A DNA stretch of 64,000 bases from an uncultured Pelagibacteraceae bacterium (GTDB taxonomy: Bacteria; Pseudomonadota; Alphaproteobacteria; Pelagibacterales; Pelagibacteraceae), in the NCBI GenBank assembly GCA_902591755.1, contig CACJBX010000002.1, positions 62,001-126,000 on the forward strand. The letters run 5' to 3'. The position numbers and the translations under genes are program-made. Positions within the stretch are counted from its first letter, which is position 1, and every line of letters starts with the position of its first letter. Below, piece by piece: positions 2,778 through 4,250 of the stretch. The notes under the pieces were generated by a model. That model did not search any database. It saw only the letters and a program-made list of their open reading frames with translations, and was not told the origin of the DNA.

Positions 2778-3731
2778 TTATATTTTAATTTTGTTCAGAG
2801 CATTATTCTTAAATATATTAGCTTCTCTTATATATCTTCTTACCATTTGCGTTGTCTTATGTCCTGTCATAGCCATTATACTTCTTTCATCAGCACCAGA
2901 TTCTGCCGCTACAGTAGCAAATCCTGCTCTTAAACTATGACCTGCAAAGTTTTTATTTTCTATACCGGCTAAGTTTAAATATTCTTTCATTAACAATACT
3001 ACAGATTGATCTGTTAATCTTTTTTCTGTTAATAACGAACCTTTAGCAAATCTTCTAAAAATAGGTCCAGATTTAATTTTTGAAACTTCTAACCATTTTT
3101 TAAGACTAGAAACTGGACAATAAATTTCATTTGAGAAGTAGGGTAGGCCCTTTATCATTCCTTCTCCAAATTGATCTGTTTTTGATCTTCTGATGGTTAT
3201 TTTAAGACCTTCAGGCACAAACTCTAAGTCCTCGTAGTCTATAGAAATAAGTTCAGTTCTTCTAAACCCCCCTCCAAATCCGATCAGTATAATTGATCTG
3301 TCTCTTGACTTTTTGATTTCTTCGCACTTTTGTTCATCTATTACATTAACTATTGATTTTAAATGATTGATTAATATAGGTTTTTTACCTCTTTGAATAC
3401 TCCCTTTTACTCTTTTAATACCTAATAAGTTTTCAGTAATAATTGGATGTTTTGTATCTAGATAATGACCTTTGAGCTTATGAACCATACTTATTGACAC
3501 CAATCTTCTTCTTATAGTGCTTATTTTAGATTTTTTTGATAGGTGAGTAAGGTAAATAGAGACTATTTTTGGCTCTGATGGTAATGAACTTAGTCCATGC
3601 TTAGCACAAAAAGACCCGAAGTCTTTAAAATCCGACTTATAAGCTCTTAATGTATTATTTGCTTTAGAACTTTTAAGATTGTTTAAAGTTGCTTCATGAA
3701 GCGATTTAAGATCTGTTGTTAATTTATTCAT
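2778..3731 (-). CDS. Tyrosine recombinase / site-specific integrase
   Basis: Catalytic motifs FRRTEL, HSLRAGF, GHKTTQMVRRYIR. The ORF track starts at 3749; the internal Met at 3731 (MNKLTTDLKSLHEATL) is a likely alternative start. Confidence 0.88.
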   Translation of the reverse strand: MNKLTTDLKSLHEATLNNLKSSKANNTLRAYKSDFKDFGSFCAKHGLSSLPSEPKIVSIYLTHLSKKSKISTIRRRLVSISMVHKLKGHYLDTKHPIITENLLGIKRVKGSIQRGKKPILINHLKSIVNVIDEQKCEEIKKSRDRSIILIGFGGGFRRTELISIDYEDLEFVPEGLKITIRRSKTDQFGEGMIKGLPYFSNEIYCPVSSLKKWLEVSKIKSGPIFRRFAKGSLLTEKRLTDQSVVLLMKEYLNLAGIENKNFAGHSLRAGFATVAAESGADERSIMAMTGHKTTQMVRRYIREANIFKNNALNKIKI

Positions 3732-3733
3732 AA

Positions 3734-3767
3734 TTACTATTGATAACAATTAATTATCATTAGTAAT
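3734..3767. repeat. Imperfect inverted repeat, 14-bp arms with 7-bp spacer (recombinase core-site or operator candidate)
   Basis: ATTACTATTGATAA-CAATTAA-TTATCATTAGTAAT; 13 of 14 arm positions are complementary. Confidence 0.5.
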
Positions 3768-3813
3768 AATATAAGTCATTTAAGATGTCAAGCAAATAAG
3801 TTAATTTGTTTTT

Positions 3814-3978: not shown

Positions 3979-4061
3979 AGTTATTAACGTTATTCACACC
4001 TATCCTTTTAATCGCCTAAAAAGTGATACATTCAACCTAAGTAGTTTGTTATTGTAAATTT

Positions 4062-4250
4062 AATTAAGGGGCAACCCTTAACTGGCCGACTGGGGAAAGG
4101 CCGAGAGGACCAAGCCCAGGGGGCAGAAAGTCTTACGGAGTAGCGCTAAAATCGTAGGGCGGAAGGCATGGCGGTAGCGCATACAACGACGTGCCAAAAC
4201 TACTGTTCTTTGCACCGTAAAAAGTGCAAGGAAACAGGGGTTTTTTCTTT
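4062..4250 (+). ncRNA. Unidentified GC-rich structured RNA with terminator-like 3' hairpin
   Basis: Bases 4081-4200 are 71/120 G+C in an AT-rich surrounding. Helices: UAAGGG-GCAA-CCCUUA (4065-4080); CUGGG/CCCAG enclosing GGCC-GAGA-GG(A)CC (4090-4119); CUUACG/CGUAGG (4132-4158); GGCAU/GUGCC (4165-4195); CUGUU-CUUUGCAC/GUGCAAGG-A-AACAG followed by GGGGUUUUUUCUUU (4203-4250). Confidence 0.75.
4203..4250 (+). terminator. Rho-independent terminator-like hairpin at 3' end of the structured RNA
   Basis: 13-bp stem with one bulged A, 8-nt loop CGUAAAAA, then GGGGTTTTTTCTTT. Confidence 0.65.

Follow-up and report, generated by a model that had tools for sequence, protein, structure and literature searches.

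Several systems have been described in which one recombinase gene is linked to a site at the replication terminus as a module, namely XerS/difSL of streptococci and lactococci and XerH/difH of epsilonproteobacteria (PMC5357621, PMC2731167). The Legionellales, an order once regarded as devoid of dif/Xer, have a single divergent recombinase, XerL, whose palindromic dif site lies close to the maximum of GC skew; a copy of this site is carried by the mobile element LME-1 (PMC9765430). Such dif sites were recognised by their place at the terminus and by the recombinase and FtsK that go with them (PMC2731167, PMC9765430). Pelagibacter ubique was reported to have no dif/Xer in the proteobacterial survey of Carnoy and Roten (2009), as an example of loss by genome streamlining (PMC2731167).

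The locus described here, from an uncultured Pelagibacteraceae bacterium and with its closest named loci in the Pelagibacteraceae, resembles each of these systems in part. A lone recombinase, a single-copy inverted repeat with a short centre and a place at the terminus, which mark the single-recombinase dif modules of the XerS, XerH and XerL kind, are all found. The descriptive likeness to XerL extends to the earlier view of the order and to the copies on mobile DNA, but the SAR11 site abuts the recombinase gene and overlaps its promoter. Unlike difSL, whose centre is described as 11 bp long, it has near-symmetric arms and a 7-bp centre. With XerCD/dif it shares its place, its probable role and the inner GATAA/TTAT letters of several alphaproteobacterial dif sites (PMC2731167), but it has one enzyme in place of two, near-symmetric arms and a 7-bp centre in place of a 6-bp one. 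Cre/loxP of phage P1 likewise consists of one enzyme and two inverted arms, although Cre serves a plasmid prophage and the SAR11 enzyme appears to serve the chromosome terminus. In loxP, arms of 13 bp flank a spacer of 8 bp. From the comparisons reported below, we are confident, though short of certain, that the recombinase uses the repeat beside its gene as its core site for recombination of the chromosome, which makes the repeat a dif site by function. No earlier report of this SAR11 system was found in the open-access literature searched, outside which most subscription papers fall.

Results

The recombinase gene (2778..3731, minus strand) of the 64-kb window, that is, of the whole stretch of DNA analysed, encodes a Cre-like/Xer-like tyrosine recombinase of 317 residues. 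Reading the window sequence directly places a 35-bp inverted repeat, ATTACTATTGATAA-CAATTAA-TTATCATTAGTAAT, at 3733-3767, 1 bp from the ATG at 3731. Two candidate recombinase half-sites of 14 bp, arm 1 on the start-codon side (3733..3746) and arm 2 (3754..3767), neither assigned to a strand, are complementary at 13 of 14 positions and flank an asymmetric central region of 7 bp (3747..3753, also without strand), which reads TTAATTG in the orientation of the recombinase. The initial annotation had described the arms, their complementarity, the spacer and the location just upstream of the start codon as they are found here, and only its first coordinate, 3734, is off by one base.

It is the only repeat of this strength (13/14, spacer of 3-12 bp) in the window, so that equally strong repeats, which would have spoken against the proposal had they been common, are absent elsewhere in it. 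A repeat finder with 9-base seeds overlooks the palindrome, owing to the arm mismatch. First-order shuffles of the window contain on average 1.5 such repeats with spacers of 3-12 bp and 0.2 with spacers of 6-8 bp. For this reason the palindrome alone is weak evidence, near the level of chance, as had been cautioned for AT-rich DNA, and its strength was rejected as an argument on its own.

The repeat is present at all 27 recombinase loci first read, which comprise that of the own genome and those of 26 others in the genus, and at 80/80 further named loci, where 1-3 bp separate it from the start codon; it adjoins the gene at each of the 107 loci inspected. The sequence upstream of the promoter diverges among these genomes and the repeat does not, so the arms, whose conservation among strains with the same recombinase had been proposed as a check, are kept in the loci read. 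The excess over chance comes from the conservation of the repeat and not from the palindrome itself.

Pattern searches in 399 genomes of the genus revealed two versions of the site. Type A (ATTACTAAY-GATAA-TTAATNG-TTATC-RATAGTAAT) is found in 209 genomes, with no match to a reversed-pattern control in the same set, and type B (TTCC-GATAA-TTAATGG-TTATC-GGAA, with the spacer also given as N7) in 69, with no genome common to both lists. Neither pattern is matched in the remaining 121 genomes (8 of the 57 of high quality), which the incompleteness of the genomes, often 50-90% complete, explains in large part, though not provably in all. The recombinase adjoins the site in all 14 type B loci read. 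These type B recombinases are 57-63% identical to the type A recombinase of the window, and they have no loop at residues 226-237. By these sequence criteria, the two mutually exclusive site versions go with two recombinase groups, and given that the type B site has other arms together with a divergent enzyme, the outer arms and the enzyme change together. Between the types, the inner core is constant, as is the spacer for the most part. Complementarity holds without exception for the five inner pairs and for pairs 6 and 7 throughout the 45 distinct host sites, and pair 7/29 occurs both as A-T and as T-A, with both sides changed together. The host spacer is nearly invariant (TTAATTG or TTAATGG), while it is variable in phages and plasmids.

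The location of the site in the chromosome was determined from cumulative GC skew. A complete relative (G012; 1,343,202 bp) has the skew maximum, computed on 795 kb of its genome, at 615.8 kb, and the site at 617.6 kb. For four further genomes, contigs gave distances of 1.8, 1.5, 1.0 and 10.6 kb between maximum and site, while in a shorter stretch of another genome the skew changes sign at the site; the genomes were read in stretches, and GC skew also tracks gene strand. The site lies at the replication terminus, as defined by the inversion of GC skew. FtsK with a gamma domain is encoded in the complete relative. The KOPS-like motif GGGNAGGG occurs 8 times versus 1 in favour of the leading strand, a bias based on few copies and confounded by GC skew. 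The complete relative also has a SAM-V riboswitch, roughly 7 kb away from the site (L043 17416-17482). Some 290 bp past the site, the window contains an IMES-2 RNA (RF02035, 159 bits; 4057-4197, plus strand), a motif that takes its name from environmental sequence of marine origin. Of 12 loci of relatives that were scanned, 10 have this RNA in a comparable position, so that it has a steady home beside the SAR11 terminus site.

The own genome (85% complete) and the complete relative each contain one PF00589 gene, as do 6 of 8 other genomes, while the other two carry a second, different gene. Among 24 genomes of order-level relatives from another family, 14 show two PF00589 matches, of which one is XerC-like (291 bits).

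These results bear on whether the recombinase could be the integrase of the neighbouring hypervariable island or of a phage, with the repeat as its attachment site. Glycosyl transferase genes adjoin the recombinase in the window, the recombinase family is common on plasmids, and glycosyl transferases also flank the 'probable phage integrase' SAR11_0551 of HTCC1062, which is listed in hypervariable region 2 (PMC2217521). Nonetheless, no genome among the 209 of type A and the 69 of type B contains more than one copy of the site, so that attL/attR pairs are missing and the repeat lacks the appearance of an att site of an island; a search of the own genome also returned no second copy. The gene was found in 26 of the 36 same-genus genomes first searched, which is about what is expected of a core gene given genome completeness, and it is the sole tyrosine recombinase gene of the own genome and of the complete relative, located at the skew inversion. 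An attachment site is therefore a very improbable reading. Of the crossover, att or dif-like site that the initial annotation had put forward, the dif-like part is favoured by the terminus location, the single copy, the single recombinase and the matching of arms and enzyme, and by the copies in phages and beside related genes presented below, while the island att part is unlikely.

The catalytic set of the recombinase (R157, K184, H265, R268, H291 and Y300) is invariant in the family alignment. The protein falls far below the NCBIfam cut-offs for XerC (59 vs 335 bits), XerD (70 vs 330) and XerS (44 vs 267). A profile of the family matches Cre with 73 bits over both domains, compared with 63 for XerA, 55 for XerD and 33 for XerH, these three matches being confined mainly to the catalytic domain. 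Foldseek with a predicted model of middling quality (pLDDT 79, pTM 0.58) also ranks Cre first (E 5e-13, TM 0.67) and ahead of XerH (E 2.6e-8), so that Cre is the best full-length match by profile and the best match by fold, although the identity is only 16-19% in the fold alignment. Since a search with the single sequence put archaeal XerA first, the likeness to Cre is probable rather than settled. By descent, the recombinase seems closer to Cre than to XerC/D. The proposed dif-like reading is amended in this respect, as the system seems related more closely to Cre/lox than to XerCD/dif.

The same palindrome is found beside relatives of this gene. In an exact scan of viral contigs, TTCCGATAA-N7-TTATCGGAA occurs in at least 120 stretches, compared with 21 for a spacer of 6 bp and 10 for one of 8 bp. 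Among 80 of the N7 loci, 12 have a recombinase 23-41% identical to that of the window, with the centre of the site 15-453 bp upstream of the aligned start (15-21 bp in four of them). Most of these 12 loci sit in DNA of 59-67% GC, indicating that the AT-rich core is not an effect of composition. In three contigs of 66-67% GC and up to 117 kb (L442 5102-6029, L401 and L441), a related recombinase starts a few bases from TTCCGATAATGGTCTGTTATCGGAA.

Using tblastn, a relative of the recombinase family was matched in 2109 plasmid records. In a plasmid of Alicyclobacillus dauci (Bacillota), AACTTCCGATAA-N7-TTATCAGAAGTC precedes the integrase gene of the relative by 37 bp, and the site of this plasmid, AACTTCCGATAATTTAACGTTATCAGAAGTC (L518 1306-1336), is nearly the SAR11 type B site. 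Plasmids of Methylobacterium and Novosphingobium have looser GATAA-N6-TTnnC palindromes near their recombinase genes. The loxP arm ATAACTTCGTATA resembles the AACTTYCGATAA arms of the plasmid relatives. The arms are kept and the spacers are free, as expected of recombination sites, and the palindrome is therefore best seen as the cognate site of the recombinase family. The likeness to Cre, together with the presence of the palindrome beside the genes of plasmid and viral relatives, makes it seem that a Cre-type enzyme related to those of plasmids stands in for XerCD, and has replaced it, in this bacterial family.

When viral contigs were scanned for the host site, the exact core was found in three that carry terminase genes and whose relatives are pelagiphages (the terminase of HTVC106P is 85% identical and those of the HTVC010P group about 49%). 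A weight matrix built from host sites was applied to 72 viral records, a few of them redundant. In 54, its best match falls ahead of the large terminase gene, at a distance of 100-950 bp, compared with 8.1 expected by length and with 5, 1 and 14 obtained with permuted matrices. Most of these matches share one strand and a distance of 328-390 bp. In some phages a second core with TTCC arms follows 31-32 bp on, so that A-like and B-like arms stand in tandem; such tandem dif-like cores are seen in three pelagiphage contigs (L165 4147-4220, L166 and L167). The phage spacers are mostly unlike that of the host. The copy in HTVC100P has a 6-bp centre (ATTACTAACGATAATTAAAGTTATCAATAGCAAT), HTVC106P has no good match to the host site, and the strict core is absent from the stretch read in HTVC010P, HTVC034P and HTVC028P.

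Unlike LME-1, the SAR11 carriers are tailed phages with terminase genes for which no integration was seen. No tyrosine integrase was found in 16 phage records, three of them complete isolates. As in IMEX, the pelagiphages have a dif-like site without an integrase, and integration at dif, which also characterises IMEX, was not detected in the 399 genus genomes, none of which showed a prophage at the site or two copies of it. A pelagiphage terminase was found in only one of the 399 genomes, where it occurs twice, as inverted copies on one contig (G210 contig 20; L324 and L325), representing either an infecting phage or an assembly artefact. As to its role, the phage site is about equally likely to let the host enzyme integrate the phage or to serve in resolving phage multimers.

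Upstream of the recombinase gene of the window, a -35-like hexamer TTGACA (3786..3791, minus strand) is followed at 17 bp by a -10-like hexamer TATTAC (3763..3768, minus strand) that overlaps the outer edge of arm 2. All 149 loci checked have TTGAC[AT], in 143 of them at a fixed distance of 27 bp from the core, and 17 bp past it there is TATTAC (128 loci) or a similar hexamer, overlapping the outer arm. Since the -10 falls within the repeat, a recombinase bound there should mask the promoter of its own gene, which would explain the odd position of the repeat against the start codon. The repeat overlaps the recombinase promoter and probably represses it, and the autoregulatory operator that had been suggested is likely as well, given the conservation of this arrangement.

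Could the repeat be an operator only, which binds the recombinase or another regulator and represses the promoter, with recombination occurring elsewhere or not at all? The conserved -35 element, its fixed spacing in most loci and the overlap of the -10 with the repeat speak for such an operator. However, no other copy of the pattern is present in the genomes, the place is the replication terminus, phages carry the site beside terminase genes without a recombinase gene, and elements that differ in the 7-bp spacer have retained the arms. This makes a purely regulatory role unlikely. A translational control hairpin in the 5' leader of the recombinase mRNA would also account for a repeat standing at the start of the transcript and adjoining the start codon. 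The same palindrome is nevertheless found in non-coding phage DNA ahead of terminase genes and, in other elements, at distances of tens to hundreds of bases from related recombinase genes. In neither setting is a leader role expected, which renders an RNA hairpin the least probable of the alternatives, with hardly any weight.

Discussion

The repeat, read as the core site of its adjacent recombinase, is very probably the single site at which doubled chromosomes are unlinked after replication. A pair of recombinase molecules would occupy the near-identical arms, with GATAA/TTATC as the inner core, and FtsK would bring the two sites of a dimeric chromosome together at the division septum and presumably activate the enzyme. 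Strand exchange, at cleavage positions that are predicted from the comparison, would then take place across the 7-bp central region and yield two monomers, while the bound recombinase may block its own promoter, whose -10 is inside the repeat. In a wider reading, which we hold tentatively and rate at a little short of an even chance, the chromosome dimers of SAR11, the most abundant group of marine bacteria, are resolved by a plasmid-related enzyme of the Cre family that displaced XerCD, and the tandem mimic sites of the integrase-less phages match both host site types, which would let these phages exploit the recombinase of either host type for integration or for resolution of their own genomes.

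The window from 1 to 2763, directly beside the recombinase, contains glycosyl transferase and UDP-galactopyranose mutase genes. This region looks like the hypervariable cell-surface island of SAR11 (HVR2), which would then border the terminus. SAR11_0551 of HTCC1062, in hypervariable region 2 (PMC2217521), is probably this recombinase gene. The 'phage integrase' of that region is thereby recast as a probable housekeeping gene, and the island is placed beside the replication terminus.

It follows that Pelagibacter would have a dif/Xer-like system which went unrecognised and consists of a different enzyme and site. The site provides a marker of the terminus for SAR11 genomes, and the two recombinase groups offer a natural pair of enzymes with distinct site types. 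The result also suggests that some SAR11 viruses use the enzyme of their host.
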